From contig JAGXHC010000048.1 of the NCBI GenBank assembly GCA_024636405.1, forward strand, positions 1 through 34,348: a stretch of DNA of 34,348 nucleotides, written 5' to 3'. This DNA comes from Sulfitobacter sp. Its GTDB lineage: Bacteria; Pseudomonadota; Alphaproteobacteria; Rhodobacterales; Rhodobacteraceae. Of the stretch, positions 8,498 through 28,287 are shown in pieces. A program made the translations under genes and the position numbers. The stretch's first letter is position 1. Every line of letters starts with the position of its first letter. Below the pieces are notes generated by a model that was not told where the DNA came from, searched no databases, and worked only from the letters and a program-made list of their open reading frames with translations.

Positions 8498-10867
8498 TCA
8501 ATTTTCGTGAGGCTTGAGCTTGTTGTGGCTCCAGTGAGCATCGATATGGTCCAAATTCAGCGTTGCCACTGTGCCATCAATCAATGCAGCAATGCGGGGT
8601 GGGGTCAAAGGAAGCGTGGAAACCTGCTTGCCCGTTGCATGCGCAACCGCGCATCCGATGGCCGCTGCAACGTTCAAAATGGGAACTTCGCCGGCGCCCT
8701 TGGTGCCCAGGGGTCCGATAGACGGGGCGCCTTCGTAAAGGTCGAATTCAACAGGAATGACGTCACCAGCCAGCGGGACGCGGTACGTCTCGAACCCGGT
8801 CTGATCAAAGGCACCTTCGGCGTTAATCGTGATTTCCTCGGTCAGGGCATAGCCCAATCCCTGCACAACACCCCCTTGGATCTGGCCATGAATTGCGCGA
8901 CGGTTAAGGGCGCGACCAACATCCTGAACCACCCTGTAAGACAGCACTTCCACGCAGCCTGATTCCGGGTCTACTGCCACCTCGCAATCGTGGACAGCAA
9001 ATACAGGCACGTCGATAGCGTCAATAAAATGCCCCGCCGCACACCCCGGCATCCCCGCCACGCCCGGCGCGGTAAAGGCACCGCTGCCGGCGATTGGCCC
9101 GATGGAAATCTCGGCTTCCTTCACGATGGTCTGAAGCGTGGCGCCCGATCCCGGTCGGCCCCTGATTTCCACCCGGCCACCCGTCAAGACAAGCTCGCTC
9201 GCGGCGGTCTGCAACAATCGCGCGGCCACGGACAACAATTTGTCCCGCACTTGTGCACAGGCTGCCTCGCTTGCGGCGCCAATGGATACGGTGGTGCGCC
9301 CGCCACCGACACCCAGATCGCGGCCGGCCGCGTCGGTATCGGCGGTTTTGACAATGACCGCGCCCGGATGAATGCCAAGATTTGCCGCCACAATCTGCGG
9401 CAGCGATTGCATCATCGTCCCCGATCCTATTTCAACCCCCGCTGTGACCAGTGTGGCACTGCCGTCCGCATTCAAATTGACCGTCGCCGAGGACGGCCCG
9501 ACGAAGATAAACCATGTGCCGACTGTTGTGCCGCGCCCGTAAAGCCGCCCATCGGGAAGTGTGCCACTGCGCCGCGCGACAGGGTATTTTGCGATCAACT
9601 GGTCCAGCATCGGGCCCAGAACGTTGCCCTCGAACACTTGCCCCGTCGCGCCTATGTCGCCGTCGCCGATCACATTGCGGCGGCGAAAAACGACCGGGTC
9701 CATGCCAATTGCTGCGCATATCTCGTCAGTGTGACGTTCCAGCGCGAAAGTGTTGTAGACGCCGTTGCAGGCACGAAACGCGCCGTTGGGCGGGGTATTG
9801 GTATAGACTGCCTTGGTGCAGATGCGCGCCGCCCCCAACCGGTAGTTCCCCCCGAGCGTGTGTGCGGTCATCGTTGTCAGAAACACCTGTTCGCCGCCGT
9901 AGGCCCCGCAATCCATAAGAACTGTTGCCTCGCGCGCGACGATTTCACCGTCGCTGTCGATGGCTGAGCGGATCCGTATATCTGCGTTTTCGCGGCACAG
10001 ACACGTCATCATCTCTTCGCGCCGCGAATTGATCAAAGAAACCGCGCGCCCTGCCTTGCGGGCCAAAATCGCGGCGTAGGGTTCCAGGGAGCAGTCGAAC
10101 TTGAGGCCAAAGCCCCCACCCACCGCAGGGACCGTCACCCGGATCGCAGATTCCGGGATCTGCAGGACGGCGGCGGTCACGTGCTTTACAGTCCAGGGCG
10201 CCTGCGTCGACGTCTGGATATGATAGCGACCGTCCTCGAATGATGCCACAACTGCGCGCGGCTCGAACGATACGTGGTTCTGCCGCCCCACCTGATAGAC
10301 GCTTTCGACGATGGTCACGTCATCGCGGGCAAACGCACCGTCGGCGTCGCCCCGTTCTACTGTTGCCTGCCAGGCGACGTTGCCGCCGCGCACCGCTCCT
10401 TCATGCAGGATATCATAGCTTTTCCAGTCGGGATGCACCAACGGAGCGTCGGTTTCCAGCGCTTCAGCCATGGTCAGCACCGCGCAGAGCGGTTGATACT
10501 CTACAACAATCGCCGCAGCCGCCGCGCGGGCCTGCGCCAGCGTTTCGGCGGCAATCGCGGCAATCGGTTCGCCGTGATAGCGCACTACTTCGCGGGCAAA
10601 GATCGGGTGATCGGCGATCCCCAGACCGTGCAGTCCGGGCGCATCATCATGGGTCGCGATGGCGTGCACGCCCGGCATCGTCAGCGCCGCTGTCACGTCC
10701 AGACGCACGATGCGCGCAGCGGCAACATCAGAGCGGCGCAAAACTGCGTGAAGGACATCATTGCCCCCCATGTCGATGGTAAACTTTGTCCGACCTTGCA
10801 CTTTATCGCGCGCGTCACGCCTTGGCAGATCCATGACAGCCATCTGCGGATCGTGGTGGTTGTTCAC
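8498..10867 (-). CDS. Molybdenum hydroxylase, molybdopterin-binding large subunit
   Basis: The 789-aa protein has the xanthine dehydrogenase / aldehyde oxidase large-subunit layout: an N-terminal a/b hammerhead domain (about 15-130), then molybdopterin-binding domains. These show GGGFGLK at 250-256, a PPNGAFRAC segment at about 359-367, GVEIGSG at 477-483 and a C-terminal GAGE with the catalytic Glu at 727. Such enzymes hydroxylate a carbon next to a ring nitrogen or an aldehyde using water. The CO dehydrogenase active-site loop (AYxCSFR) is absent, so this is not CoxL. The usual FRGFG after the active-site loop is replaced by FRACNG, pointing to an uncommon substrate. A GTG start overlaps the stop of the small-subunit gene (GTGA). 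The electron path would be Mo, 2Fe-2S, FAD. Substrate unknown; an N-heterocycle is inferred from the neighbouring hydantoinase genes. Confidence 0.9.
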   Translation of the reverse strand: MNNHHDPQMAVMDLPRRDARDKVQGRTKFTIDMGGNDVLHAVLRRSDVAAARIVRLDVTAALTMPGVHAIATHDDAPGLHGLGIADHPIFAREVVRYHGEPIAAIAAETLAQARAAAAAIVVEYQPLCAVLTMAEALETDAPLVHPDWKSYDILHEGAVRGGNVAWQATVERGDADGAFARDDVTIVESVYQVGRQNHVSFEPRAVVASFEDGRYHIQTSTQAPWTVKHVTAAVLQIPESAIRVTVPAVGGGFGLKFDCSLEPYAAILARKAGRAVSLINSRREEMMTCLCRENADIRIRSAIDSDGEIVAREATVLMDCGAYGGEQVFLTTMTAHTLGGNYRLGAARICTKAVYTNTPPNGAFRACNGVYNTFALERHTDEICAAIGMDPVVFRRRNVIGDGDIGATGQVFEGNVLGPMLDQLIAKYPVARRSGTLPDGRLYGRGTTVGTWFIFVGPSSATVNLNADGSATLVTAGVEIGSGTMMQSLPQIVAANLGIHPGAVIVKTADTDAAGRDLGVGGGRTTVSIGAASEAACAQVRDKLLSVAARLLQTAASELVLTGGRVEIRGRPGSGATLQTIVKEAEISIGPIAGSGAFTAPGVAGMPGCAAGHFIDAIDVPVFAVHDCEVAVDPESGCVEVLSYRVVQDVGRALNRRAIHGQIQGGVVQGLGYALTEEITINAEGAFDQTGFETYRVPLAGDVIPVEFDLYEGAPSIGPLGTKGAGEVPILNVAAAIGCAVAHATGKQVSTLPLTPPRIAALIDGTVATLNLDHIDAHWSHNKLKPHEN

Positions 10868-11346
10868 AGCATCGCCTCCGATGGCGCTGAGGTGTTGACC
10901 TGCAGGGACATGACCGCGTCGATGATCCGCTCATATCCAGTGCAGCGGCATATATTACCCGTCAGCGCAGACTTGACTTCGCTGCGGGTTGGCGCGGTAT
11001 TTACTTGCAAATAGTGGGTGAGCGTCATGACCATGCCGGAAAAACACATGCCACATTGCACCACGTCGTGATCAACAAACGCCTGTTGCACCGCGTTCAG
11101 AGTATCCAAGGTGCTGATCCCTTCTATGGTGCATACTTCGGCCGCTTCCAATGCGCCCAAGGCCAGCAGGCAAGACGTTTTTGGCACGCCGTTCACGTAC
11201 ACGATACAAGCACCACAGAAGCCTTCCCCGCAGACGGGCTTGGACCCGGTCAGCCGGAATTCATCGCGCAACACATCAATCAGCGCGGTCCGCGGATCGC
11301 CCGAAAAGCTGCGTTCCCTGCCGTTGAGCGTGAATGTGACGGTCAT
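10864..11346 (-). CDS. Molybdenum hydroxylase, 2Fe-2S small subunit
   Basis: This 160-aa protein has a plant-ferredoxin-type cluster ligated by C39, C44, C47 and C59 (CGEGFCGAC, then SC) and a helical-domain cluster ligated by C98, C101, C133 and C135 (QCGMC and ICRCTGY). It matches CoxS/XdhA-type small subunits, which pass electrons from molybdenum to FAD. The ATG at 11346 overlaps the medium-subunit stop (ATGA); a longer frame exists upstream but lies inside that gene. No twin-arginine signal is present, so the complex should be cytoplasmic. Confidence 0.94.
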   Translation of the reverse strand: MTVTFTLNGRERSFSGDPRTALIDVLRDEFRLTGSKPVCGEGFCGACIVYVNGVPKTSCLLALGALEAAEVCTIEGISTLDTLNAVQQAFVDHDVVQCGMCFSGMVMTLTHYLQVNTAPTRSEVKSALTGNICRCTGYERIIDAVMSLQVNTSAPSEAML

Positions 11347-12227
11347 GTCGGTGCCCCTTGCCCCAATTGCGTTGCCACGTCGGCAAAGGCGCGCGCGATG
11401 AGCTGCGGCAAAATACGCGCGCGATACCACCCCGGCGCATCGACACCATCGCGCGGTATGAGGATCCCAAGATGCGCGCGTGCCGCAGTCTTTGCAGTTT
11501 CAGCGTCAAAGATTTGCCCTGTCAGCGCGGCTTCCAATGCACCCCAACGGCGCGGTGTCACCTCAACGGAGCTGATGGCGATGCGCAGCGCCACGATAAT
11601 GTTTTTCGGATCAATTTCTGCAAAGACACTCACGATTGCGACCGGATATTCGCCAGCCTGTCGCAGCAAACCGCGCGCATGGGCCGAAGCACCGGGATGA
11701 TGTGGCACCTGAATCTGCGTAAGAATTTCGTCCTGGGGCCTGCTGCCCCGTGTTTTGACGTATGCCTCAAGCAAACAAGTTTCTTTTGCCCGCACCGAGT
11801 GCACCGTGATCGTCGCGTGCAGCGCGATCAGCGCGGGCACCAGATCCGGCGCGGCAAAGTTTTGCGTGCAAATGTTGCCGCCCACCGTCGCACAGTTGCG
11901 GATTGCCGGATTGGCAGACACCGTGGCCGCGGTGGCAAGCGCGCCAAAAGCCGGATAAGCATCCAGCGATCGGCCAAGGGCATCATGGGTGACCAGCGCG
12001 CCGATCCGCAGGGATGCGCCGTCTGTTTGGATCCCATGCATTGTGTCGATCCCCGCAAGTGAAACGAACGTCCTGTCTTCGTCTTCACCTCTCAGGGCTG
12101 CGCGCATCACCCAAGTGCCTCCGGCCACGAAAACGCACGCGCGCGGACCGCTGACGCCCACAGCGGCCAGCGCGTCCTTGATTGTCGTTGGCCGAAGATA
12201 AGCAGGGGCGGTCAGCGAGACGTTCAC
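11343..12227 (-). CDS. Molybdenum hydroxylase, FAD-binding medium subunit
   Basis: This 294-aa protein has the CoxM-type FAD domain: the flavin-binding VAGGTWVM near the N-terminus and the second motif IRNCATVGGNI in the middle, followed by the CO-dehydrogenase flavoprotein C-terminal domain. The first motif usually reads AGGTDL; Asp is replaced by Trp here. The subunit passes electrons from the iron-sulfur clusters to an acceptor. The start is GTG with only a weak GGA ahead. It opens the three-subunit set (FAD, FeS, Mo) and follows hyuB after 86 bases that hold a hairpin. Confidence 0.88.
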   Translation of the reverse strand: MNVSLTAPAYLRPTTIKDALAAVGVSGPRACVFVAGGTWVMRAALRGEDEDRTFVSLAGIDTMHGIQTDGASLRIGALVTHDALGRSLDAYPAFGALATAATVSANPAIRNCATVGGNICTQNFAAPDLVPALIALHATITVHSVRAKETCLLEAYVKTRGSRPQDEILTQIQVPHHPGASAHARGLLRQAGEYPVAIVSVFAEIDPKNIIVALRIAISSVEVTPRRWGALEAALTGQIFDAETAKTAARAHLGILIPRDGVDAPGWYRARILPQLIARAFADVATQLGQGAPT

Positions 12228-12273
12228 AATATCATGTCCATCTATGGATCATTTTTGGGCCAGTTTGCGCCGG

Positions 12274-12302: not shown

Positions 12303-12313
12303 CCCTCTGGATT

Positions 12314-14275
12314 TTACGTCCAGTGTGAGACAGAGCGTTTTTCAAAGCTTTCCCGGAACTGATCGGTGGACTTCGGCATCAGCTCGCCGGTTCCCCAATC
12401 AAGGATCACAGCGTATTTACGAACCGCATCCATCTCGTTGATTTCACCGTCGCGGTACATCTGCGAGACCTTTTCAGGGTCCATCCGGGCCCAGCCAACC
12501 CGGTTCTCGCGAATATGCGCGCGGGCCTTTTTTGTCGCGACCTCGTCCAGTTTATAGTCGAGCATGTCCGCGTCGATCACCTTGATGACGACGCCGTAAT
12601 CCAGCTCGGCGCGATTGACGGACACGTATTCATCGATGACGTCCTGGCGCACACGTTCGGGATCGCGTTGCATCGGGTCACCATAGCCGCCGCCGCCTGC
12701 GGTAGGTCGGGTGAACTTGTCGCCGCTCTCAATCTTGTAGTTTGAAAAGACCGACCCGAGCCACTTTTCCTCGCCTGTGGCCGCGTGCTTTACCATCAGG
12801 CCGTGTGGCATCGACGGCAGACCGCCTTCTACTCCCCAGACAACGGCGCGTTCGCGGTCGCAAATGTAGGACATGACAGTGTTTTCCGCCTCCAAAAGGG
12901 TGGACGCCTTGATTACGCCTGCACCGCCACGCCATTTGCCTGGTCCGGGGCTGTCCTGTTTGATTTGAAATTCGTCCGCGCGGGTGGGGTTTACCCGTTC
13001 GTTGCCTTCAGAAGGCTGTGACATCAGACCCGTTCCGAAGCAGGCGGTCGTCACGTCGCTGCCGTCTTTGCCGTTACGCCCACCCCAGCCACCGGGCAAC
13101 CATTCATAGAACATGTAGATCGGTTTTTCAGGTTTGCGCAGATCGTTGCCACCCGCCAGAAGGTATTCAAGGTTGAAAGCACAGGCGATGGCACGCTCCG
13201 GCATGATCTGTGACCACATCTCGAAGATCGCGTTCATGATCTTTTCAAACGGCATCAAAAAGCCGGTGACGGCCACGGGCCATTCCGCGCTGACGACGCT
13301 GTTTTTTGGCGCCTTGATCTCAACCATGCGGTAGAAGCCGCTGTTCAGCGGCAGATCGGGGAAAAACGTCTTCATGCCCGCCACCACCGCAGAGAATGTC
13401 GCGCCATGTGCCGAGTTATAGATTGACGAAATCGTCGGGTGGCTGCCTTCGAAGTCATAGATGATCTGATCGCCCTTGATCGTCATCTTGATATGGATCG
13501 GGATCATGCCTTCGCCCGCGCCGGGATCGCGGTCAATGTAATCAACTGCCTCCCAGGTCCCGTCAGGCAGATCCGAAATACGCTGACGCACGGCGCGTTC
13601 AACATAATCCTGCACCGCGTCCATGCCTTGCGTGACCTGATCGCGACCGTATTTACCAACCAAACGCTGCAATTCGCGTTCGGCGACCTGCGTGGCTTGG
13701 GCCTGTGAATGGATGTCGCCGATGATTGACGCGGGGTCACGGGTGTTGGCCGCAATCATGTTCGCGACGTCGGAACAAAACTTGCCCTTATGAAACAGCC
13801 GGATTGGCGTGATCCGTACCGCCTCGCCGAACATTTCGTGCGCGGAGACGTTGAAAGAGCCGGGGACCGACCCACCAAGATCCGACCAGTGGCCGTTGGA
13901 CTGCGAGAAGCCAATCAACGTTTCTTCGTCAAATATCGGTCGGATCAGGCGAACGTCACTGAAGTGAGTGCCGCCCGCGTAAGGATCGTTGATGGCATAG
14001 ACGTCGCCCGGATACATGTCGTCCTTGAAAACGCGGATCACATCCTTGCAGGTAAAATGCAAGGTGCCGACATGCACCGCGATGTCCGAATTGCCCTGCG
14101 CCACGCAATTGCCATCGGCGTCGTGCAGGCCATTGGAAAAATCGCGGTTATAGATCACGAAGGAATAGCAGGTCCGCAGCATCTGTTCGGCCATCTGGTC
14201 GACCGACGTGATAAAGGAGTTCTTCAGAACCTCGAAAGTGACCGGGTCCAGTTCTTTTTTAGGGGTGCTGTTCAT
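12314..14275 (-). CDS. hyuB: Hydantoinase/oxoprolinase B-type subunit
   Basis: The 653-aa protein matches the HyuB family: an N-terminal DPVTFEVLKN motif, NDPYAGGTHFSDV at about residue 96, GHWSDLGG and NVSAHEMFGEAVRI near 150, and a late GGGGYGDP segment. After that segment comes a tail of about 110 residues ending KYAVILDWGTGELMPKST, which is typical of the proteobacterial HyuB subgroup. With HyuA it makes an ATP-dependent complex that opens five- or six-membered cyclic amides or imides; relatives act on hydantoins, 5-oxoproline, lactams or, as carboxylases, on ketones. It starts three bases after the hyuA stop with AAGGA ahead. Substrate not predictable from sequence alone. Confidence 0.9.
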   Translation of the reverse strand: MNSTPKKELDPVTFEVLKNSFITSVDQMAEQMLRTCYSFVIYNRDFSNGLHDADGNCVAQGNSDIAVHVGTLHFTCKDVIRVFKDDMYPGDVYAINDPYAGGTHFSDVRLIRPIFDEETLIGFSQSNGHWSDLGGSVPGSFNVSAHEMFGEAVRITPIRLFHKGKFCSDVANMIAANTRDPASIIGDIHSQAQATQVAERELQRLVGKYGRDQVTQGMDAVQDYVERAVRQRISDLPDGTWEAVDYIDRDPGAGEGMIPIHIKMTIKGDQIIYDFEGSHPTISSIYNSAHGATFSAVVAGMKTFFPDLPLNSGFYRMVEIKAPKNSVVSAEWPVAVTGFLMPFEKIMNAIFEMWSQIMPERAIACAFNLEYLLAGGNDLRKPEKPIYMFYEWLPGGWGGRNGKDGSDVTTACFGTGLMSQPSEGNERVNPTRADEFQIKQDSPGPGKWRGGAGVIKASTLLEAENTVMSYICDRERAVVWGVEGGLPSMPHGLMVKHAATGEEKWLGSVFSNYKIESGDKFTRPTAGGGGYGDPMQRDPERVRQDVIDEYVSVNRAELDYGVVIKVIDADMLDYKLDEVATKKARAHIRENRVGWARMDPEKVSQMYRDGEINEMDAVRKYAVILDWGTGELMPKSTDQFRESFEKRSVSHWT

Positions 14276-14278
14276 GTC

Positions 14279-16306
14279 TCAGTCCTTCACGCGGATAAGA
14301 ATGTTCATGTATTGATCGACTTTTGCGGTCGCCTTGGGTGGCACGACAACGGTTGAATCGATCTGTTCGACGATCGCCGGGCCGCTGAATTCAGCGCCGG
14401 CTTTCATCGTCGCGCGGTCGTAGATGTCGGTTGCGCACCTTTCGCCTTTGAACCAGACGTCACGCTGGCCAACCGGCTCAGGTGTATGCGCCTCAACCTC
14501 AAAGGATGGCAGTTCAGCCTTCTGTACAACGCCGGTCGCCTTGACGCCGACGCGGAAAATGCTCACCGGTGCGTCGACCCGCCGGAAATTGTATTCGCGC
14601 TCATGTTCGTTGTGAAAGCCCGCCACAAGGTCTTGGGTGCTGGTGATCCTGGACGGAGCTGAAACCGACAAAGACCGCCACTGGCCCTGGTACATCATCT
14701 CGACGGTGCGCTGCAGAACCGTGTCCTCGGGCGATACGCCTTCATGGCGCAACCGCGCGACGGCCTCCTTTTCGATCTTGGCAAAGGCGGTCTCCAGATC
14801 TTCTGGAGTAGACGTCGCAGCATCCGCCATGAAGCTGTCGGAAAAGTCGTGCTGGATGTCGACCAGCAAGCACCCCATGGCAGAGGTCACGCCGGGGTTT
14901 GGCGGAACGATCACAACCGGAATGGACAGTTCCTTCGCCACAGCAGCCCCGTGCAATGCCCCTGCCCCGCCGAACGCAACCAAAGCAAAGTCGCGCGGGT
15001 CATGCCCACGGCTGATCGACAGCAGGCGGACGGCATTTGCCATATTGGCGTTGGCCACATCAATGACCGCTTCGGCGGCCTCATGCAGTTCCATGCCAAA
15101 GGGTTCCGCGACGGTTTCGCGCACTGCCTTTTCGGCGAGCGTGGGATCAAGCGTGATATCGCCCCCAGCCAGACTGTGGCCCAGTCGGCCCAGCACGACA
15201 TTGGCGTCACTGTTGGTCGCGACTTCGTTGCCGTTTGAATAACACGCGGGTCCGGGATACGCGCCGGCCGATTGCGGACCATTGCGCAGCGAGCCGCCCT
15301 CGTCTTTCCAGGCAAGCGATCCACCGCCAGCGCCAATTGTCAGCACCTCAATGCTGGGAAAGCGGATCGGATAGCCATATTCGATGTACCAATCCTTGGT
15401 CACCGTGGATTCGCCCTGATAGCAAAGTGAGACGTCCGTGCTGGTCCCGCCCATGTCGAACCCGATGGAATTCTCGTATCCGCACAGGTTGCTGATGAAC
15501 CGGCTGGCAATCGCGCCCGCCGCAATCCCGGAGCCTGCCAGTCTTGCGGCGAAATCCTTGACACTGGCCGGGGTCATTACGCCGCCGCCCGTATGCAGCA
15601 GCAACAGGTCGCGGGTATAGCCGCCATCGGCCAGCTTTTCGCTGAGACGGGACACGTAATCGACCACCACCGGCGACACGGCCGCATTGACCATTGTCGT
15701 TGAAAAACGCTCATGCTCGAAAATTTCGGGCATGATCTGGGATGAGATGGAGATATGCACGTCGGGCATCTGCTCGCGCAGGATCTCACGCATGCGCACC
15801 TCGTGCTCGCCGTTGACGTAGGAATTGATAAAGCAGACCGCGATCGCCTTCACGTCGCGTTTCTTCAGAATTTCGGCAACGCGGCGGGCTTCGTTTTCAT
15901 CCAGATCCTGGATGATCTTGCCACCGGCGTCGATGCGTTCCTTGACGGTCAGCCGGTCGCGGCGCGGAATATAGGGTTTGGCAACATCCTTATAAGTGTC
16001 CCACAGGTCTTCCTTGTTTGAGCGGCGAATTTCGACCACATCGCGGAAACCTTCGGTGCACACCATCGCAACACGTGGCAGTTTGCGGGTGATCAATGCG
16101 TTGGTCGCGACTGTTGTGCCGTGCGAAAACATTGTCACTTCTGCCAGATTGACCTTGGCGTCCGACACCCCGGTCATGATCGCGCGCATTGGATCATCGG
16201 GGGTTGAGGGGGTCTTTTCGATCCGGATTTGGCCGGTTTCCTCATCCATGATGCACACGTCGGTGAAGGTTCCACCGACATCAACTGCGACTCTCAACTT
16301 TGCCAT
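14279..16306 (-). CDS. hyuA: Hydantoinase/oxoprolinase A-type subunit
   Basis: The 675-aa protein has the HyuA fold, an ASKHA-type ATPase. It shows DVGGTFTDV at 9-17, SHGTTVATNALI near 62-73, a second GFDMGGTSTDVSL in the middle, GAGGGSLAW, and GPACY in the AYPGPACY segment. It uses ATP to activate the amide carbonyl for ring opening with HyuB. Length is normal for stand-alone HyuA (about 680-700). AGGAAGAG lies before the ATG. The gene follows the AraC-family regulator on the same strand after 103 bases. An AraC regulator beside hyuAB resembles, as I recall, the lactam-responsive OplR/OplBA set of Pseudomonas putida, which makes a lactam a reasonable but unproven substrate. Confidence 0.92.
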   Translation of the reverse strand: MAKLRVAVDVGGTFTDVCIMDEETGQIRIEKTPSTPDDPMRAIMTGVSDAKVNLAEVTMFSHGTTVATNALITRKLPRVAMVCTEGFRDVVEIRRSNKEDLWDTYKDVAKPYIPRRDRLTVKERIDAGGKIIQDLDENEARRVAEILKKRDVKAIAVCFINSYVNGEHEVRMREILREQMPDVHISISSQIMPEIFEHERFSTTMVNAAVSPVVVDYVSRLSEKLADGGYTRDLLLLHTGGGVMTPASVKDFAARLAGSGIAAGAIASRFISNLCGYENSIGFDMGGTSTDVSLCYQGESTVTKDWYIEYGYPIRFPSIEVLTIGAGGGSLAWKDEGGSLRNGPQSAGAYPGPACYSNGNEVATNSDANVVLGRLGHSLAGGDITLDPTLAEKAVRETVAEPFGMELHEAAEAVIDVANANMANAVRLLSISRGHDPRDFALVAFGGAGALHGAAVAKELSIPVVIVPPNPGVTSAMGCLLVDIQHDFSDSFMADAATSTPEDLETAFAKIEKEAVARLRHEGVSPEDTVLQRTVEMMYQGQWRSLSVSAPSRITSTQDLVAGFHNEHEREYNFRRVDAPVSIFRVGVKATGVVQKAELPSFEVEAHTPEPVGQRDVWFKGERCATDIYDRATMKAGAEFSGPAIVEQIDSTVVVPPKATAKVDQYMNILIRVKD

Positions 16307-16409: not shown

Positions 16410-17372
16410 TCAAGTGCGGGCTGCCGCCTCCAGCCGACTGATCTTGCGGGTGTCGGTCGGCGTGCAGCCGAACCGGTTTCGGTAATGCTTGCAAAACTGA
16501 GCCTGGTCGTAAAACCCCCACTTGTGGGCGATTTGCGCCATGCTAGATGTGTTGTTCGCCATCTTGAGCGTCTCATGGCAGCGGGTCAGCCGCTTGTCGC
16601 GGATATAGCCCACGACCGAATGATCGTTCTCCGCAAAGAGCCGCTGCAGATAGCGCAACGAAATGCCACATGATTCCGCCACAACCTGTGAATTGAGGTT
16701 CGGGTTCGCCAGGTTGTCGCGGATAAACTGTTCTGCGCGCTGCAAATGTGCGGCGCGGATTGTGGATGTGGTGCTGTCTAGGATGCGGTCGTCGCTGCGC
16801 ATGGAAAGGCACAGAAGGTCCAGCAGGTGTTGGCCAGCCATTTCGCGCGCGGCATCATTGATCACGTCGATGCTTTGGATCGTGTTGCGCACTGATCCCA
16901 CAAAATAAGATCCGATGCCCGATGTCGCGTCAAAGGTCAGCGCGCCAAGCCGGTCTGTAGCCCCCAGTCGGGACCGCACACTGGATGTCGGGACCTTGAG
17001 CACCCATAGTTTATTGGGTTTTGCATGCGAGAATTCGTAGGGCATATCGCCGCGTTCCACGAGAAATGCGCCCGGTCCGCAGCTGGTGTGGCGCGAAGCC
17101 TGCTGAAAATGCACGTCCACCTTGTGCGGGATCGTGATCAGCAGGCTGCTGTCTTTCTCATTGGTAAAGTGCTTCTTGTTGCGGCGGTAGAGAACGCCGT
17201 CACATTCCATCTCCGATAGCCCAAGAATGCCCAGCGACCAGGATTTCAGCGATCCGTTAAACGCCATCGGGTTGTGGCATTCTGCAGACAGCGGAAAATA
17301 GGTCTCGGACAACGTCCGCGACCAGACCTTGTTCTTGTCGACCCCTTCACAGTGATCGGTAGAAAAATGCAT
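16410..17372 (-). CDS. AraC-family transcriptional regulator
   Basis: The 320-aa protein has an N-terminal cupin-like sensor region (about 20-190, with the GAFLVERGDMPYEF strand pair) and a C-terminal AraC DNA-binding domain from about 215. The first helix-turn-helix is around VVAESCGISLRYLQRLF and the second around MAQIAHKWGFYDQAQFCKHYRNRFG. It reads toward hyuA and is likely the regulator of the hyuAB / Mo-hydroxylase operon, sensing its substrate or product. GGGGGAAGAG precedes the ATG. The 223 bases between it and the ABC permease stop contain no gene; they hold a small inverted repeat (TTTGC-ATC-GCAAA at 17477-17489) that could belong to its promoter. Confidence 0.9.
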   Translation of the reverse strand: MHFSTDHCEGVDKNKVWSRTLSETYFPLSAECHNPMAFNGSLKSWSLGILGLSEMECDGVLYRRNKKHFTNEKDSSLLITIPHKVDVHFQQASRHTSCGPGAFLVERGDMPYEFSHAKPNKLWVLKVPTSSVRSRLGATDRLGALTFDATSGIGSYFVGSVRNTIQSIDVINDAAREMAGQHLLDLLCLSMRSDDRILDSTTSTIRAAHLQRAEQFIRDNLANPNLNSQVVAESCGISLRYLQRLFAENDHSVVGYIRDKRLTRCHETLKMANNTSSMAQIAHKWGFYDQAQFCKHYRNRFGCTPTDTRKISRLEAAART

Positions 17373-19576: not shown

Positions 19577-19577
19577 C

Positions 19578-21164: not shown

Positions 21165-22214
21165 TTACTCTACCGAGTAGACCGGGTCCCAATCCGCAGG
21201 TGCGAACGAGCGGCTGAGGTCCAACCCATCAATGTTGTCTTTGGTCACGACTGTCATGGATGGGAACAGATGCGTCATGTGGTCCTTGCCTTCAAGGATG
21301 CGCACGGCCATGTCCATCGCGATGCGTGCTTCCATGACGGGCGATTCCGTCACAGTTGCCGTCACGACGCCGGATTTCACCAGATCAACCATGCCTTCGT
21401 TGGAGTAATACGCCGCAATGATTGCATCATCGTTCCCGGCTTCCTCCAGCGCCTGCTTTGCAACTTCGGCGGTCACGGCCGTGCCGTAGATGATGTTCAC
21501 ATCGTCGTAAGCCTGCAGCGCGTCTTCGACGAGGCGCAGCTGAACGCTTTTGCCGGTATCGCCGTATTTGGCTTCCAGCAGCTCGATGTTGCTTCCCTCA
21601 ATGCCGCGCTCGACGCCTTCTGTCGACGCTTCGGCCCAGCCGGAACCCTGCGGTCCGGGGAAGTGCACCATGCGCATCGGCTTGTCGCCCGCCATTTCCG
21701 TCAGAAATTTGGCACCCGCTTCGGCAGCATCATCGTAGTTCGCAAAGATGCGGGCGTCCGCTACATCGCTCATCGGGTTGATCACGCCGACTTGCACGAT
21801 GCCCTTTTCCTTGCCCTCTGTCATGCTTTTGGCCAACCCGGCTTCGGAAATGGCGCCGATCACGATGGCATCTACGCCAAGCGCCAGACAGTCGTTGTAC
21901 TGCGAAACCTGCTTGGCCGCTTCTGTGTAACCGCCCGCTTCGAGGATCGTCGCCTTGACGCCCAGTTTGCGCGCCTGGTCCACGATACCGTAGTTCACGC
22001 CGACCCAATAGCTGTCTTTCATGTGCGGAAACAGCACGCAGATGTGCCACGGCTTTTCAGCCTTTTCCAGACCTGTATAGGCCACGATCGTGTCTGGGCC
22101 TTCGGCGGCATTGATCACATCAAAAGGCCATATGGCATCCTGCGCGTAGGCAGCGGATGTCAGGCCCGCGACGATAATCGCAGATGTGGATATGCTGGTG
22201 AGCATCTTTTTCAT
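21165..22214 (-). CDS. Periplasmic binding protein, TorT-like, of the ABC importer
   Basis: The 349-aa protein begins with a Sec signal peptide (Lys-rich start, hydrophobic core, likely cut after AYA at residue 24) and has the two-lobed type I periplasmic-binding fold. The segment ICVLFPHMKDSYWVGVNYG and the following EAGGY closely resemble the TorT-like branch rather than ribose-binding proteins. TorT of E. coli is the periplasmic partner of the TMAO sensor TorS; TorT-like proteins also serve ABC importers. AGGAGGT-like GGAGGTTC lies just before the ATG at 22214; the frame is open another 92 codons upstream, but that stretch does not look coding. First gene of the importer operon. Ligand unknown. 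Confidence 0.85.
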   Translation of the reverse strand: MKKMLTSISTSAIIVAGLTSAAYAQDAIWPFDVINAAEGPDTIVAYTGLEKAEKPWHICVLFPHMKDSYWVGVNYGIVDQARKLGVKATILEAGGYTEAAKQVSQYNDCLALGVDAIVIGAISEAGLAKSMTEGKEKGIVQVGVINPMSDVADARIFANYDDAAEAGAKFLTEMAGDKPMRMVHFPGPQGSGWAEASTEGVERGIEGSNIELLEAKYGDTGKSVQLRLVEDALQAYDDVNIIYGTAVTAEVAKQALEEAGNDDAIIAAYYSNEGMVDLVKSGVVTATVTESPVMEARIAMDMAVRILEGKDHMTHLFPSMTVVTKDNIDGLDLSRSFAPADWDPVYSVE

Positions 22215-22673: not shown

Positions 22674-22687
22674 ACAGCCGCCGATTA

Positions 22688-23974
22688 TCAACCGGCGTGC
22701 GCGGAACTTGCATGCAAAAGGCAATCTTCGACAATATCCAACCCTTCCCCAAAGACCTCATCCTGAACCGTGATCGGGGCAAGGAAACGAATGACGTTTC
22801 CGTAGACACCGCATGTCAGCAAAATAAGCCCACGCTGGAACGCCAGATCTTTTACCTTGTTGGCAAACTCAGGATTTGGCGTGCCATCTCCGGGGTGCTT
22901 GAATTCGACCGCGTTCATAAAGCCAGGGCCGCGGATGTCAGAGATTTCGGGCACCCGGTCGCACAGCGATGCCAGCCGTTGTTTCAGCCGCCCCCCAAGT
23001 TGCATTGCGCGGTCACACAATTGCTCTTCTTCAATCACATCAAGCACAGCGTTGGCCGCTGCGACACCAATCGGGTTACCGCCATAGGTGCCGCCCAGGC
23101 CGCCCACGTTCGGGCCGTCCATCACCTCGGCGCGCCCGGTCACGGCGGCCAATGGAAACCCACCGGCAAGGCCCTTGGCCATCGTCACGATATCGGCCGC
23201 AACGCCGTGGTGTTCCATGGCGAACAATTTGCCGGTGCGTGCGAAACCGGTCTGGACCTCGTCCGCGATCAGTAAAATTCCGTGTTCATCACATAGACTG
23301 CGCAGCTTTTTCAGAAATGCCGTGGAGCATTCGTAAAAGCCGCCTTCGCCCTGCACTGGTTCCACGATCATCGCGGCAACGCGGCCCGGATCGACGTCGG
23401 CCTTAAAGAGCTTATCAAGTGCGGCAAATGCGTCCGCTTCGGTCACGCCATGCAGATCTATCGGAAAAGGCGCATGAAGCACATCGCCCGGCATTGCGCC
23501 AAAGCCGACTTTGTAGGGGAACACTTTGCCGGTCAACGACATGCCCATGAACGTGCGGCCATGAAACGCCCCCGAAAAGGCGATGATGGCGGATCGGCCT
23601 GTTGACGCGCGTGCAATCTTGACTGCGTTTTCAACAGCTTCGGCACCCGTTGAGACAAAGATCGTTTTCTTCGCGAAATCCCCCGGCACCAGTGTGTTCA
23701 GTCGCTCGGCCAGGCGCACGTAGCTCTCATAGGGCATGACCTGGTGGCAGGTATGGGTGAATTTGTCGAGTTGGGCCTTTACGGCTTCCATGACCTTGGG
23801 ATGGCGGTGCCCGGTGTTCACAACCGCGATCCCAGCGGCGAAATCAATGTAGCGATTGCCTTCGATGTCCCAGATCTCGGCATTTTCGGCGCGGTCGGCA
23901 TAAACCTGCGTCATCATGCCAACGCCACGTGCGATGGCGGTTGTCTTGCGTTCCTGAACGGCTGCGTTTTTCAC
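22688..23974 (-). CDS. gabT: Class III aminotransferase, 4-aminobutyrate type
   Basis: The 428-aa PLP enzyme of the GabT group shows STGAEAVENAVKIAR at 108-122, SGAFHGRT at 134-141, the Asp that contacts the PLP ring nitrogen in IADEVQTG (D238) and the Schiff-base Lys267 in MAKGLAGG. Family members move the omega-amino group of 4-aminobutyrate or 5-aminovalerate to 2-oxoglutarate. The GTG start has AGGA upstream. Being last in an operon for ring opening of cyclic amides suggests that the opened product is an omega-amino acid, for example from a 4- or 5-carbon lactam. The exact chain length is not predictable. Confidence 0.93.
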   Translation of the reverse strand: MKNAAVQERKTTAIARGVGMMTQVYADRAENAEIWDIEGNRYIDFAAGIAVVNTGHRHPKVMEAVKAQLDKFTHTCHQVMPYESYVRLAERLNTLVPGDFAKKTIFVSTGAEAVENAVKIARASTGRSAIIAFSGAFHGRTFMGMSLTGKVFPYKVGFGAMPGDVLHAPFPIDLHGVTEADAFAALDKLFKADVDPGRVAAMIVEPVQGEGGFYECSTAFLKKLRSLCDEHGILLIADEVQTGFARTGKLFAMEHHGVAADIVTMAKGLAGGFPLAAVTGRAEVMDGPNVGGLGGTYGGNPIGVAAANAVLDVIEEEQLCDRAMQLGGRLKQRLASLCDRVPEISDIRGPGFMNAVEFKHPGDGTPNPEFANKVKDLAFQRGLILLTCGVYGNVIRFLAPITVQDEVFGEGLDIVEDCLLHASSAHAG

Positions 23975-24008
23975 GGGTTGGTATCCTGGTGGTGGGTTTC
24001 AAGGGACA

Positions 24009-24029: not shown

Positions 24030-24036
24030 GGTGGGA

Positions 24037-25011
24037 TTACGCCAAATGCGCGCGCACGGCATCCAGCGATGCGGCACGTTCTTTGCGGGCGGCCAGTGCT
24101 GTCTCCATGTCGACCTTGATGAACCGGGTCGGCACGTTGGGCTGCAATTGGCCGATCAGATCCATATCGGCGGAAATAACGGTGCCGATCATGAAATAGC
24201 CGCCACCAGACACCGCATCACGGTGCAGGATGATCGGTTCCGTACCGCTGGGCACCTGCACGGAGCCGTAGGGATAACAGGCATCGGTGATGTTTGATGG
24301 ATCTGAGCCTGCGCCGAACGGCGGTTCGCGGTCCACGAACTCAAGCGGCGTGCCGCCTTTGAACCGGTAGCCCATGCGATCCGCTTCGGACGCAACTTTC
24401 CAGGTTTCCTCAAAGAACCGCTTGCCCGCAGCTTCGGTGATCCGGTGCCAATAGAGACCCGGCAAGATGCGCAACTCAGCGGTGGCACCGGGAATGCGGC
24501 GTTTGTCCTCAGGAACACTGGCGCCAATCCTGGCCTTGCCGGTGCTCTGGCCCAGCGGCAACACGTCACCGGGCTGCACCGCGCGCCCGTCGATGCCCCC
24601 CAACGCGCCAATCGGATAAGTCGACCGACTGCCCAAATCGAGCGGCGTATCGATACCGCCCGCAAAAGCGATATAGGCACGCGCACCTGAACGCAGGTAA
24701 TCGAACGTCAGCGTCTGCCCGGCCTTCACGGCGATCGCTGTCCAGGACGCCAACACCTCGCCATCCAGCTTGGGCGGCAAATCACCGCCGGTGACAGCCA
24801 CGACGCCGTCTTGGGTAAACTCAAGCTCGGGGCCCATAAAGACGCATTCCAACCCTGCGGCGCTCTCATCATTGCCCACCAGCATGTTGGCACATCGCAT
24901 CGCGAAACGGTCCATCGCGCCGCCCATCGGGATGCCAAGGTGGTAATATCCGGGTCGCCCAAGGTCCTGAATGGTGGTCGCGAAACCGGACGTTTTGACA
25001 TTAATCGGCAT
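24037..25011 (-). CDS. pxpC: Biotin-dependent carboxyltransferase / 5-oxoprolinase subunit C family
   Basis: This 324-aa protein of the KipA/PxpC (AHS2) family shows TTIQDLGRPGY at about 13-23, GAMDRFAMRCANMLVGN at 31-47, AYIAFAGGIDTPLDLGSRSTY near 112-132, ADRMGYRFKG, and GGGYFMIGTVI near the end. The AHS2 fold also forms half of the carboxyltransferase in urea carboxylase. The start is the ATG giving MPINVKTS, which overlaps the pxpB end by 11 bases; a longer frame lies inside pxpB. The usual QVPxxGQPIxL motif is altered to QVPSGTEPIIL. It should pair with PxpB. With a biotin carboxylase beside it, true carboxyl transfer to an amide nitrogen is possible. Confidence 0.88.
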   Translation of the reverse strand: MPINVKTSGFATTIQDLGRPGYYHLGIPMGGAMDRFAMRCANMLVGNDESAAGLECVFMGPELEFTQDGVVAVTGGDLPPKLDGEVLASWTAIAVKAGQTLTFDYLRSGARAYIAFAGGIDTPLDLGSRSTYPIGALGGIDGRAVQPGDVLPLGQSTGKARIGASVPEDKRRIPGATAELRILPGLYWHRITEAAGKRFFEETWKVASEADRMGYRFKGGTPLEFVDREPPFGAGSDPSNITDACYPYGSVQVPSGTEPIILHRDAVSGGGYFMIGTVISADMDLIGQLQPNVPTRFIKVDMETALAARKERAASLDAVRAHLA

Positions 25012-25876
25012 AGAGTGCTTCCTCCAGCTTGGCGTTCGTTCCGTTGATGTCCGCATTAAAATCGTCGAGGGAGAAGACGACTTCGCGAATGCGCGGCGCA
25101 TAGGTGTTTGCTTCGACTTCGGCTAGGCAGCGGTCGTATTCTGCGCGGTCGATCGGTTTCCACTTCACGATGTCGCCGGGTTTGAAAAAGACCAGAAAGT
25201 CCTTGAGATAGCTTGTCTTTTGCTCCGGATCATAGATCGGCATGGGGGTAACACCAAACATCTGGTAACCGCCTGCCCCACGCACGGAATACACACAGGA
25301 AAAACAGCCGCCGTAGCCGACGGTAAGCTTGGGCGTATCGGTACGCGGGCGCAGATACTTGGGCACCTGAATCTGACGTTCTCGTTCAACCATCTGATAG
25401 AGAAATGGCAGGCCCGACACGAAGCCTACCATTGAAACAAACCAAGGCGACCCGGAATGCGCCTTAATGAACGCGTCCACGCTGTCATAGCCATTGATGC
25501 GTGCGGCATATTCGATATCTGTCGATTCCGGATCCTGATGCCGCTCGCGGAACCGCATCAGCGTCTCATGGGTCCAGGGGTCCTGATAATAGACCGGGAT
25601 TTCAATGATCCGCGTGGTCAGAACCGGCTCCTGCTTGGCGGCGGTTTCCTCCATCGACTTAAGCCGGTCCATCAGCGCGTCAGGGTGGATGACATCCGGA
25701 TCAAACTTGATCTGGAACGAGGCGTTGGCCGGGCAAATCTCGGTTATGCCGTCGATCTTGGCGTCGCGCACAGCGTTGGTCATTGAAAGTGTCGTAAAAA
25801 ATGCCTCCAGCGACATCTCTTCGCTGACTTCGACGAAGATATGTTCGTCGCCTCCAAAGGTGTACCTTGATGTCAT
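25001..25876 (-). CDS. pxpB: Carboxyltransferase / 5-oxoprolinase subunit B family (KipI-like)
   Basis: This 291-aa AHS1-family protein is longer than the usual 220-240. The extra length lies mainly before and around residues 100-145. The family signature normally reads GFxPGFxYL; here it is GFVSGLPFLYQM, with the Pro-Gly order changed. A later GYGGCFSCVYSVRGAGGYQMFG replaces the usual GGWxxxG ending. It forms the partner half of PxpC. The ATG overlaps the biotin carboxylase stop (ATGA). The motif changes and the length suggest a separate subgroup with a different substrate from 5-oxoproline. This is inference. Confidence 0.85.
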   Translation of the reverse strand: MTSRYTFGGDEHIFVEVSEEMSLEAFFTTLSMTNAVRDAKIDGITEICPANASFQIKFDPDVIHPDALMDRLKSMEETAAKQEPVLTTRIIEIPVYYQDPWTHETLMRFRERHQDPESTDIEYAARINGYDSVDAFIKAHSGSPWFVSMVGFVSGLPFLYQMVERERQIQVPKYLRPRTDTPKLTVGYGGCFSCVYSVRGAGGYQMFGVTPMPIYDPEQKTSYLKDFLVFFKPGDIVKWKPIDRAEYDRCLAEVEANTYAPRIREVVFSLDDFNADINGTNAKLEEALYAD

Positions 25877-27258
25877 GACGGCATGTCTCCTTCTTCTGAA
25901 AGTGTATGCGCATTTTGTTCAAGCCAGGGCTCGAGCCATTTTGTGTGAAAATTGCCCGCCTGAACGTCCGCGTCCTTTGCCAGCGACAGAAATAGCGGCG
26001 CGGTGGTTTTCAACGCGCCTGTGCGCAACTCGCCTACTGCGCGGACAAGCCTTTTGATCGCGGCCTCGCGGTCGTTGGCGATCACGATCAGCTTGCCAAC
26101 CAGCGAGTCGTAGAATGGCGGTATCTGATAGCCATCATAAAGCATGTGATCAAACCGGACACCGGGGCCACCGGGGGCACGAAAAGTATCGACCATGCCC
26201 GGAAAGGGTGCAAAATTGTTCGTCGGATCCTCGGCGTTGATGCGGACTTCGATCGCGTGCCCACGCAGCACGATGTCCTTTTGCGCGATCGAAAGCGGCG
26301 CGCCACCGGCGATGGCGATCATCTCTGTCAGCAAATCCAACCCTGTCACGCTTTCCGTTACGGGATGTTCAACCTGAATGCGGGTATTCATTTCTATAAA
26401 GTAGAACGCGCCTGTCTGATCGTCGTAGAGATATTCGACCGTGCCCGCGCCGCGGTATTTGACCGACCGCGCAAGGGCCACGGCACTGTCGCACAGTTTT
26501 GTACGCACCGCATCGCTCAGCGCGCTCGACGGGGCCTCTTCCCAAACCTTCTGGCGACGCCGCTGAAGCGAACATTCGCGTTCAAAGCAATGGACGAAGT
26601 TGACGCCGTCGCCCAGGATCTGCACTTCTATATGACGCGCTTTGGCAATCATCTTTTCCAGATAAAGCCCACCATCGCCAAACGCCGATTTTGCTTCGGC
26701 TGCGGCCTGCGGGGCGAGGCTGGCGAATTCATCTGCGTTTTCGGCCACGCGGATGCCACGCCCGCCGCCCCCGGCGGTCGCCTTGATCATCACCGGATAG
26801 CCAATCTTTTCAGCGATTTGCAAAGCATCTTTCATGTCGCCGATCATACCGTCACTGCCGGGCACGGTAGGCACGTTCGCGGCCTCGGCGGCCTTGCGCG
26901 CGGACGCCTTGTCGCCCATCGCGCGGATCATGTCACCGCTGGGGCCGACAAAGGCCAAGCCTGCGGCCTCCACCGCATCTGCAAAATCCGCGTTTTCGGC
27001 CAAAAAGCCATAGCCGGGATGCACGGCGTCTGCGCCGCTGTCTTTGGCGGCTTTCAGTACCGCCTCGACGTTGAGATAAGACTTGGCTGCGGGGGGCGGG
27101 CCGATCTCAACCGCTTCATCGGCCATCTCGACAGCCAGCGAAGTCGCATCTGCTGTGCTGTAGACCTGGACGGTACGGATGCCCATTTCCTTGGCGGCAC
27201 GGATGATCCGCACGGCGATCTCGCCACGGTTGGCAATCAGGAGTTTGGAAATACCCAT
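25873..27258 (-). CDS. accC: Biotin carboxylase
   Basis: The 461-aa protein has the full biotin carboxylase fold: the N-terminal LLIANRGEIAVRIIRAAKEMG, the glycine-rich ATP-grasp loop ATAGGGGRGIRV at about 160, ECSLQRRRQKVWEEAPS at about 228, and the EMNTRIQVEHPVTE active-site strand. It charges biotin on the carrier protein with CO2 using ATP and bicarbonate. It lies six bases after the carrier gene and overlaps pxpB, so it is a dedicated copy for the pxp operon rather than the housekeeping fatty-acid enzyme. It is slightly longer than AccC (about 449) because of a C-terminal extension. Confidence 0.93.
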   Translation of the reverse strand: MGISKLLIANRGEIAVRIIRAAKEMGIRTVQVYSTADATSLAVEMADEAVEIGPPPAAKSYLNVEAVLKAAKDSGADAVHPGYGFLAENADFADAVEAAGLAFVGPSGDMIRAMGDKASARKAAEAANVPTVPGSDGMIGDMKDALQIAEKIGYPVMIKATAGGGGRGIRVAENADEFASLAPQAAAEAKSAFGDGGLYLEKMIAKARHIEVQILGDGVNFVHCFERECSLQRRRQKVWEEAPSSALSDAVRTKLCDSAVALARSVKYRGAGTVEYLYDDQTGAFYFIEMNTRIQVEHPVTESVTGLDLLTEMIAIAGGAPLSIAQKDIVLRGHAIEVRINAEDPTNNFAPFPGMVDTFRAPGGPGVRFDHMLYDGYQIPPFYDSLVGKLIVIANDREAAIKRLVRAVGELRTGALKTTAPLFLSLAKDADVQAGNFHTKWLEPWLEQNAHTLSEEGDMPS

Positions 27259-27264
27259 GATCGT

Positions 27265-27507
27265 TCAGGTTTCAAGCTCGGCCACAACCTGACCGGGCAT
27301 GATCGCGTCTTCGTTCTCGACTGTGAAGGCGGTGATTGTGCCATCGGTATCCGACTTCACCTCGGTGTAGGTTTTCATCACTTCTACCAGACCGATCACG
27401 TCTCCCTTTTTTACCGCATCGCCTACTTCCTTGTAGTTTGGGTCGTCGGGCGAAGCGCGGCGATAGAACACGCCCGGCAAGGGCGAACGGATTTCAGATT
27501 TGGCCAT
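27265..27507 (-). CDS. accB: Biotin carboxyl carrier protein
   Basis: This 80-aa protein is a single biotinyl domain. The attachment Lys45 lies in VEVMKTYTEV, where typical carriers read EAMKM; Val and Thr replace Ala and Met. PLPGVFYRR near the start is the usual first strand. It lacks the Ala/Pro-rich linker and N-terminal domain of fatty-acid AccB, so it is a compact, stand-alone carrier. AGGAG precedes the ATG at 27507; a longer frame adds 13 residues of upstream leader. It carries carboxyl groups from the adjacent biotin carboxylase, probably to PxpB-PxpC. Confidence 0.9.
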   Translation of the reverse strand: MAKSEIRSPLPGVFYRRASPDDPNYKEVGDAVKKGDVIGLVEVMKTYTEVKSDTDGTITAFTVENEDAIMPGQVVAELET

Positions 27508-27555
27508 CGTATACTCTCCTGTTTTGTCAGTGTCAGTCGGGCGCAAGCCACCGCG

Positions 27556-28287
27556 TCAACGTGCCGAAAGCCGATCCCCCAGCGCCGCGCGCATGGCCAT
27601 GGTGATTTCAACCACACCTGGCGTATCGGAATGAACGCAGATAGTATCTGCGCGCACATTGTTTTGTTTTCCTGAAGCACTGACGACAATTCCGTGGTCG
27701 ACTGCCATCACCACCTTGGCGGCCACCGCTTCGGGATCTTTGGCGCCATGTTCACGGGTAATCAGCAATTTACCATCATCATCATAGTCCAGATCGGCAA
27801 AAAACTCGGCCCGGAATTCAAGCCCCCGCGCCGTATAGATCTCCTCGTGCAAGGTCCCTGCGAGCCCGAAGATTGGAATGCCCAGATGTTCGGACGCATC
27901 ACAGACGGCGTGGGCAATATGTTCTTGCCGCGCGGCCATGCCGTACAGTGCGCCGTGTGGCTTGACGTGCGATAGCGCCACACCGGCCACTTTGAGAAAC
28001 TCATTCAGCGCGCCGATCTGGTAGAGAATGATGTTGGCCATTTCTTCGCGGTCGATCACCATTTCGCGTCGACCAAAACCCGCGAGATCGGGCAGCGACA
28101 CATGCGCCCCGATGCGCACGCCGTTTCGCTTGGCCGAGGCTACGGTTTTGCGCATGTGGTTGGGATCTGAGCCGTGGAAACCGCAGGCGATGTTTGCTTC
28201 CGTGATCAGCGGCATAAGCGCTTCGTCATCACCCAGTTTATAAAGTGCAAAGCTCTCGCCCATGTCACAATTGATATCGACAGCCAT
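27556..28287 (-). CDS. pxpA: LamB/YcsF family protein, 5-oxoprolinase subunit A-like
   Basis: The 243-aa protein has the family start VDINCDMGESF, ITEANIACGFHGSDPNHM, GAHVSLPDLAGFGRREM and HVKPHGALY. PxpA with PxpB-PxpC forms ATP-dependent 5-oxoprolinase in other bacteria. Several normally fixed positions differ: GFHAGDP is GFHGSDP, GAHPxxPD is GAHVSLPD, and CVHGD is CVHSD. The start is the ATG at 28287 with GGGAGG ahead; 12 more residues upstream are unlikely to be coding. First gene of the operon pxpA, carrier, biotin carboxylase, pxpB, pxpC, aminotransferase. The second copy of the shared element lies about 115 bases upstream. Confidence 0.88.
   Translation of the reverse strand: MAVDINCDMGESFALYKLGDDEALMPLITEANIACGFHGSDPNHMRKTVASAKRNGVRIGAHVSLPDLAGFGRREMVIDREEMANIILYQIGALNEFLKVAGVALSHVKPHGALYGMAARQEHIAHAVCDASEHLGIPIFGLAGTLHEEIYTARGLEFRAEFFADLDYDDDGKLLITREHGAKDPEAVAAKVVMAVDHGIVVSASGKQNNVRADTICVHSDTPGVVEITMAMRAALGDRLSAR

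Follow-up and report, generated by a model that had tools for sequence, protein, structure and literature searches.

A contiguous set of 16 genes, all on the minus strand of a 34,348-nucleotide stretch of Sulfitobacter sp. DNA (contig JAGXHC010000048.1 of assembly GCA_024636405.1; hereafter the window), is probably a modular island for the use of small N-heterocycles and lactams, a reading to which we give a probability of roughly 0.6. The island runs from 8498 to about 28323 and comprises a molybdenum (Mo) hydroxylase, the hydantoinase-type pair HyuAB, an AraC regulator, a TorT-like importer, the aminotransferase GabT, and a module in which PxpA, PxpB, and PxpC homologs stand with a biotin carboxylase (BC) and a biotin carboxyl carrier protein (BCCP). 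An initial annotation had described a minus-strand set of importer, Mo hydroxylase, HyuAB, Pxp proteins with BC and carrier, and aminotransferase, and all of these parts are present. The evidence for the island consists of gene content, family placement, motifs, co-occurrence, linkage, and module exchange. A more specific proposal, which we hold tentatively, is that the island encodes a new bacterial pathway in which a cyclic imine or a comparable N-heterocycle, once imported, would be converted to a lactam by a dedicated Mo hydroxylase, a biotin-dependent carboxylation-hydrolysis complex would open the lactam to an omega-amino acid, and HyuAB would serve as a second, phosphorylating opener, the modules being traded between lineages yet kept as a working set.

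The label PxpABC, used in the initial annotation, finds no support in its present form, since the B and C subunits appear urea-carboxylase-like and go with BC and a carrier. Scored against the 5-oxoprolinase models, PxpB reaches 70.4 bits (TIGR00370, cut-off 145.55) and PxpC 213.5 bits (NF045499, cut-off 500). The urea carboxylase model gives them higher scores (115.1 and 239.8 bits, respectively), which are likewise far below its full-length cut-off. The only model passed by PxpC is that of the domain shared by 5-oxoprolinase and urea amidolyase (265.4 vs. 230.2 bits), and PxpA passes two subfamily models (280.2 vs. 226 and 222.4 vs. 213 bits) and none of three equivalogs. Partners of the module were counted in 48 biotin-type Pxp places, 38 fetched for the purpose and 10 taken from other loci, with six contigs under 15 kb; BC is present in 47, BCCP in 46, and PxpA in 45. 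The putative biotinyl-lysine motif of BCCP reads VMKS in 38, VMKT in 28, and VMKQ in 3 of 69 matches (window and overlapping loci counted). PxpB and PxpC scores under the 5-oxoprolinase cut-offs, together with adjacent BC and BCCP, point to a biotin-dependent carboxyltransferase over a plain 5-oxoprolinase, and the module is better understood as a biotin-dependent lactam opener resembling urea carboxylase. The window also encodes, side by side, a LamB-type protein, BC, BCCP, and a urea-carboxylase-type carboxyltransferase, the combination that defines the LamA/LamB type. A relative of the biotin transporter BioY (one copy checked by Pfam) shares the strand of PxpC and lies no more than 4 kb from it in 10 of the 48 places, the distance being at most 0.25 kb in 8 of them. 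Pxp-module loci L080, L049, and L068 have a biotin-synthase-like radical SAM protein with a BATS domain; the L080 copy was scanned and the other two were assigned by clustering.

Co-occurrence, linkage, and module exchange lend good support to the original proposal that the operons constitute one catabolic system. The large subunit of the Mo hydroxylase (MoL), PxpB, and HyuA were searched for in 397 genomes from the order of Aurantimonas G006 (presumably Hyphomicrobiales), where MoL is found in 11, biotin-type PxpB in 47, and HyuA of at least 68% identity in 10 (HyuA at E 1e-220 or better in 18). The phylogenetic profile put forward as a check on the original idea has thereby been run, and the idea survived it: PxpB is present in 11 of 11 MoL-positive and 36 of 386 MoL-negative genomes (Fisher 2e-11), in 10 of 10 when the centre genome is left out (2e-10), and in 8 of 8 after three genomes also behind the TorT loci are dropped (1e-8), with the caution, which counts against the reading, that shared ancestry and genomes of unmatched size make these Fisher values overstate the evidence. 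Similarly, PxpB is present in 9 of 10 genomes with close HyuA (38 of 387 others), and HyuA in 6 of 11 MoL genomes (4 of 386 others). The stretches seen around MoL include PxpB in 9 of 11 cases and either PxpB or HyuAB in 10. In the order of Sulfitobacter G002, MoL occurs in 2 of 292 genomes (the centre G002 and G126), both with PxpB. The dependence in the 397-genome sample is one-sided, as Mo comes with Pxp and Pxp is often found without Mo, which is expected if Pxp acts later.

The gene set also recurs as a neighborhood. A scan with the TorT-like protein gave 331 confirmed loci, the best 80 of which were kept and scored with the window proteins over stretches of up to 10 kb on each side. Among these best 80 loci the Pxp module is present in 63, Mo genes in 29, and close HyuAB in 23; all three modules occur in 19, and Pxp with Mo but without close HyuAB in nine, which include Mesorhizobium, Amorphus, Celeribacter, and Pelagivirga. 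Loci chosen mostly through TorT cannot by themselves show co-occurrence. The five nearest loci (L009-L013) have the same gene order as the window, and Pxp, HyuAB, and Mo genes are found together in 7 of 10 Aurantimonadaceae and 7 of 9 Bradyrhizobium loci. Sulfitobacter alexandrii and the betaproteobacterium Diaphorobacter carry a compact, plasmid-borne run from which HyuAB is absent: LysR, then PxpA-BCCP-BC-PxpB-PxpC-TorT-ATPase-permease-MoMSL. Recurrence of the set within Alphaproteobacteria, and of the set minus HyuAB on one plasmid of a betaproteobacterium, is more than chance would give. Among the 48 Pxp places, a TorT-like protein is found in 21, and TorT, GabT, and succinate semialdehyde dehydrogenase (SSADH) together in 5; Ruegeria TM1040 and Pelagibius also carry TorT, Pxp, GabT, and SSADH together.

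Parts of the system seem to have been replaced while the whole was kept. In a tree of BC and PxpB (72 rows, quick method), Mo-linked Pxp modules fall in several clades. Paired trees were made from 26 rows, L039 having been dropped from 27 pairs because its MoL match is too short, and with the MoL of L038 45% filled. The MoL of Roseovarius G005 falls in the clade of the window (100/99), and its BC-PxpB groups with S. alexandrii and G009 (100/100). Aliiroseovarius G003 is the opposite case, with Pxp grouping with the window (100/99) and MoL outside that set. Such replacement of parts within a conserved whole would be difficult to account for if the parts had no function in common.

The Mo hydroxylase has the three subunits of the xanthine oxidase family, carrying Mo, two 2Fe-2S domains, and FAD, respectively. 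Its large subunit has a putative catalytic glutamate at position 727, in the motif GAGE. The closest PDB relative of MoL is the alpha subunit of 4-hydroxybenzoyl-CoA reductase, an assignment that failed at the equivalog (409.2 vs. 994.55 bits). N-heteroaromatic substrates such as nicotinate were set aside on the reasoning that an enzyme opening lactams directly is not expected to act on an aromatic pyridone. A ring reductase is not recognized among the recurring neighbors either, among which no search was aimed at one. The neighbors of the G422 MoL, which has no Pxp or HyuAB nearby, match ADH, LacI, and DUF192 and give no clue to function.

HyuA and HyuB carry the features of ATP-dependent lactamases and hydantoinases. 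HyuA has the ATP motifs DVGGTFTD at 9, DMGGT at 284, and GAYPGP at 348, and HyuB has an Asp-His-Asp-His metal site, in which D45, H104, D107, and H129 align with the CapB ligands D41, H99, D102, and H124; the CapB ligands and the ATP motifs of the family are as defined in the accessible text of PMC8453981. The vicinal Cys410-Cys411 pair of CapB, described in the same source, aligns with Ala-Cys in HyuB. Against the caprolactamase equivalogs, HyuA and HyuB score 525.9 and 305.1 bits (cut-off 1000 each). By sequence their nearest solved relative is N-methylhydantoinase 7hk5 (470.4 and 287.6 bits), with lower scores against CapAB 6yra (356.5 and 235 bits). The presence of two different ATP-dependent openers, pointed out in the initial annotation, stands as anatomy and recurs, HyuA being in the stretch seen at 16 of the 48 biotin-type Pxp places (5 close and 11 distant); how HyuAB and the biotin system would divide the work is a matter of proposal. 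The distant HyuA at 11 places indicates a pairing of two openers wider than the window's type. These distant copies (e.g., L151, L164, L176, L180) are 33-38% identical in most cases and stand usually with HyuB and often with an AraC gene. In the TorT loci, aminotransferases of the PRK06105 family (eight proteins were assigned to it) occur in 6 of 23 loci with close HyuAB and in 10 of 17 with distant HyuAB, and they also adjoin HyuAB on three plasmids. The Aurantimonas representative has as its best solved match 5ghf, which we take to be the Ochrobactrum omega-aminotransferase, followed by 6g4b and its kin, presumably the omega-aminotransferase of the P. jessenii caprolactam pathway.

GabT exceeds the PRK07495 equivalog cut-off (809.2 vs. 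724 bits), which bears out the 4-aminobutyrate-type assignment made originally. The binding protein has a fold related to TorT and adjoins the ATPase and permeases; its best relatives are from Sulfitobacter, Roseovarius, and Aliiroseovarius, which makes a roseobacter the probable host. No TorS sensor partner stands beside it, and the sole TorS-model match among the 30 window open reading frames scanned is a weak one, to CheA. A structure model of the binding protein is closest to 4yhs and gave no substrate hint.

From these components a route may be proposed in which we infer the substrate, the order of steps, the N-carboxylation, and the role of HyuAB. The TorT-like importer would take up the compound, and the Mo hydroxylase would act on a ring that is non-aromatic or readily oxidized, oxidizing the carbon adjacent to its nitrogen to give a lactam, conversion of 1-pyrroline to 2-pyrrolidone being the simplest candidate. 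In the compact runs no other enzyme lies between importer, Mo hydroxylase, and Pxp, so that Pxp should act on the product of the Mo enzyme or on a compound close to it. By extension of urea carboxylase chemistry, BC, BCCP, and the PxpB/PxpC carboxyltransferase would carry out an ATP-driven carboxylation of the lactam nitrogen, as urea carboxylase does with urea, after which PxpA/LamB would hydrolyze the activated ring with loss of CO2. HyuAB would act through ATP phosphorylation on another ring, or on a cyclic amide upstream of Pxp, and GabT would convert the omega-amino acid, most likely 4-aminobutyrate (GABA), to a semialdehyde that can enter the TCA cycle. The gene content of the TorT-Pxp-GabT-SSADH loci suggests biotin-requiring conversion of 2-pyrrolidone to GABA, succinate semialdehyde, and succinate. 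The sequence of oxidation, opening, and transamination sketched in the initial annotation is chemically coherent and fits the loci, its substrate and order being part of the proposal.

Several observations weigh against an island of this kind. Because partners vary across the 80 TorT loci and the 48 Pxp places, no module is fixed except Pxp with BC and BCCP. Among the tested partners Pxp stands alone in 25 of the 80 TorT loci, Pxp is missing from 17, and a TorT-like protein is absent from 27 of the 48 Pxp places (short contigs account for six of the 48). Of the five closest relatives, L010 alone has GabT beside the set, and GabT with SSADH is found in 5 of 48 Pxp places. PxpB lies 288 kb from MoL in G387; MoL, HyuA, and PxpB are on three contigs in G422; G357 has HyuA without PxpB; and where the HyuA matches are only 54-59% identical, PxpB is present in 2 of 8 genomes. 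In addition, the nearest solved relative of HyuAB is an N-methylhydantoinase and no lactamase.

The variability of partners could mean that the island is two or three unrelated catabolic operons, for 5-oxoproline, for hydantoin or lactam, and a purine or aldehyde Mo hydroxylase, brought together by chance in an accessory region. The TorT loci in which Pxp stands alone fit such an origin. So do a Sulfitobacter plasmid on which HyuAB is accompanied by a Liv-type transporter and two Rhizobium plasmids that carry HyuAB with Mo and, over the plasmid stretches covered, lack a Pxp set. We consider it unlikely, as the rare MoL shares 11 of 11 genomes with biotin-type PxpB even where they are unlinked (G387, G422), and as several clades of Pxp show the Mo-Pxp pairing, which is also seen where modules have been exchanged.

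Two other explanations keep the genes together and change the substrate. Homology of PxpA, PxpB, and PxpC would also be expected of an island for 5-oxoproline (pyroglutamate) utilization by a canonical PxpABC with glutamate as product, and CapAB, kin of HyuAB, are termed clearly related to eukaryotic oxoprolinases in the accessible text of PMC8453981; with PxpB and PxpC under the 5-oxoprolinase cut-offs, BC and BCCP as near-constant partners (the available portion of the C. glutamicum pxpTABC paper, PMC13274462, has no accC or carboxylase), and GabT and SSADH neighbors pointing to GABA, we regard this as quite improbable. Rather improbable as well is a ureide pathway, in which HyuAB would open hydantoin, N-methylhydantoin, or a dihydropyrimidine, the Mo enzyme would supply that ring by acting on an imidazole or pyrimidine, and the carbamoyl group would fall to the urea-carboxylase-like complex. 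The ranking of 7hk5 above CapAB 6yra, the resemblance of PxpB and PxpC to urea carboxylase, and an L004-type amidase close to Pxp in 4 of 48 places are what it would predict; no carbamoylase is recognized among the recurring neighbors, without a direct search for one, the compact Mo-Pxp runs lack HyuAB, and GabT with SSADH fit a lactam better.

Each enzyme type in the proposed lactam pathway is already known. In the lamA/lamB/gatA system of Aspergillus nidulans, whose substrate is 2-pyrrolidinone, a LamB-family protein works with LamA, a biotin-dependent partner with a urea-carboxylase-like domain make-up, and the island has the same pairing. The GABA transaminase of the fungal system has a counterpart in the window and in one of the five closest loci. 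The island differs in being bacterial, in having its subunits on separate genes and its own TorT-type importer, and in the addition of a Mo hydroxylase and HyuAB, a comparison made at the level of system composition without fungal sequences. By this analogy its opener reads better as a bacterial counterpart of lamA/lamB. In A. nidulans, AmdR controls lamA and lamB for the lactam and gatA and gabA for the omega-amino acid (PMC8016842, accessible text). In the Pseudomonas jessenii caprolactam pathway (CapAB, PjAT, 6-oxohexanoate dehydrogenase), an ATP-dependent enzyme of the HyuAB type opens the lactam and an omega-aminotransferase acts next (PMC6061476, PMC8453981), a layout that the island resembles; the accessible portions of both papers mention no Mo hydroxylase or biotin system. 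The likeness extends to the PRK06105 aminotransferases near HyuAB in some relatives of the island, and the island HyuAB differs from CapAB in falling under the cut-offs and lacking the vicinal Cys pair. The 5-oxoprolinase PxpABC is a known system in E. coli. It shares with the island the side-by-side PxpA, PxpB, and PxpC homologs, which in C. glutamicum are described in the available portion of PMC13274462; the island adds BC and carrier as near-constant partners, and its B and C subunits are under the family cut-offs. Urea carboxylase (3va7, 5i8i) has BC, a carrier, and the same carboxyltransferase subdomains, whereas the island has separate proteins and an added LamB/PxpA, with no allophanate hydrolase among the window genes scanned. 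N-methylhydantoinase 7hk5 is one fused chain of 1288 residues, whereas HyuA and HyuB are separate, and no carbamoylase is among the window genes scanned.

Lactams with five- or six-membered rings are chemically very stable. According to a 2023 paper (PMC11033972, accessible text), no mild enzymatic hydrolysis protocol for monocyclic gamma- and delta-lactams had been reported before its work on OplAB, which is strongly active on valerolactam with traces only on gamma-butyrolactam. The biotin-dependent opener is present in 47 of the 397 genomes surveyed in a single order and in some cases would receive its substrate from a Mo hydroxylase. If the proposal is true, it would add a second kind of chemistry for lactam opening, would offer a defined gene set to test, and would correct annotations of "5-oxoprolinase," "allophanate hydrolase," and "xanthine dehydrogenase" at such loci. 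No description of the combination, of the biotin-dependent opener in bacteria, or of its tie to a Mo hydroxylase was found in the open-access literature, a body that leaves preprints and most subscription papers outside; the gene combination is likewise not found in the accessible portions of PMC8683493, PMC6507225, PMC8453981, PMC13274462, PMC8016842, PMC6061476, and PMC11033972.

The island is probably several transcription units, because of two long intergenic gaps (223 bases between AraC and permease and 473 bases between binding protein and GabT) and because a terminator-like site (12304-12283) separates HyuB from the FAD subunit. Across the window 26 terminator-like sites were found against 18.1 (sd 4.4) expected, and promoter-like sites are at chance level (7 found, 7.2 expected). 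PxpA is divergent from a LysR gene (plus strand, start 28528). Some mechanically called starts are too long.

Table 1. Genes of the island and its divergent regulator, with positions in the window.
Feature	Position	Strand	Remarks
MoL, Mo hydroxylase large subunit, XDH family	8498..10867	-	no NCBIfam equivalog cut-off reached
Mo hydroxylase small subunit, two 2Fe-2S domains	10864..11346	-	alternative longer start 11430 unlikely
Mo hydroxylase medium subunit, FAD-binding	11343..12227	-	
HyuB, hydantoinase B / CapB-like	12314..14275	-	
HyuA, hydantoinase A / CapA-like	14279..16306	-	
AraC-family regulator, FeaR-like	16410..17372	-	adjoins HyuA in many relatives
RbsC-like permease 2	17596..18630	-	
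RbsC-like permease 1	18572..19624	-	
RbsA-like double ATPase	19578..21158	-	
TorT-like binding protein	21165..22214	-	22214 is the most likely start
GabT, 4-aminobutyrate aminotransferase	22688..23974	-	
PxpC / carboxyltransferase subdomains A and B	24037..25101	-	start probably nearer 25011, judging from overlaps in relatives
PxpB / carboxyltransferase subdomains C and D	25001..25876	-	
Biotin carboxylase (BC)	25873..27258	-	motifs GGGGRG at 163, EMNTRIQVEH at 289
Biotin carboxyl carrier (BCCP)	27265..27546	-	putative biotinyl-lysine motif VMKT
PxpA / LamB-YcsF protein	27556..28323	-	
LysR-family regulator	28528..29427	+	relative seen in 30 of 48 biotin-type Pxp places

Unassigned open reading frames of 88 loci were clustered for extra recurring enzymes hinting at the substrate, and no cluster spans more than 10 loci; many of these frames are spurious, so weak cluster signals may be lost. 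Ten cluster representatives were identified by Pfam as SDR, GntR, BioY, BATS radical SAM, sigma factor, ROK, SpoU, DAO, class IV aminotransferase, and APH. A PotABCD-like importer and two SDRs lie close to biotin-type Pxp in L003, L006, L154, L155, L172, L174, and L180, and in Ensifer L004 they are close to HyuAB instead. Some loci of this type add a PuuE-like polysaccharide deacetylase, a CobW GTPase, and an amidase or asparaginase. The whole group perhaps represents another pathway ending in a lactam.

Outside the island, the window begins with a methyltetrahydrofolate:corrinoid methyltransferase-like protein (2-1114, plus strand; 392.5 bits vs. a cut-off of 259), followed by chemotaxis genes at 1980-8272 (cheA, W, R, and Y on the plus strand, cheB and D on the minus strand) that end just short of the island. 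On the far side, 29476-31700 on the minus strand encodes an M24 peptidase-family, DddP-like protein (351 bits, under the cut-off of 600) and, overlapping it, a HalD-like protein (PF23169, 52 bits), with a LysR gene and an SBP_bac_5 protein as flanks. A HalD relative (32%) is also close to Pxp in L166.

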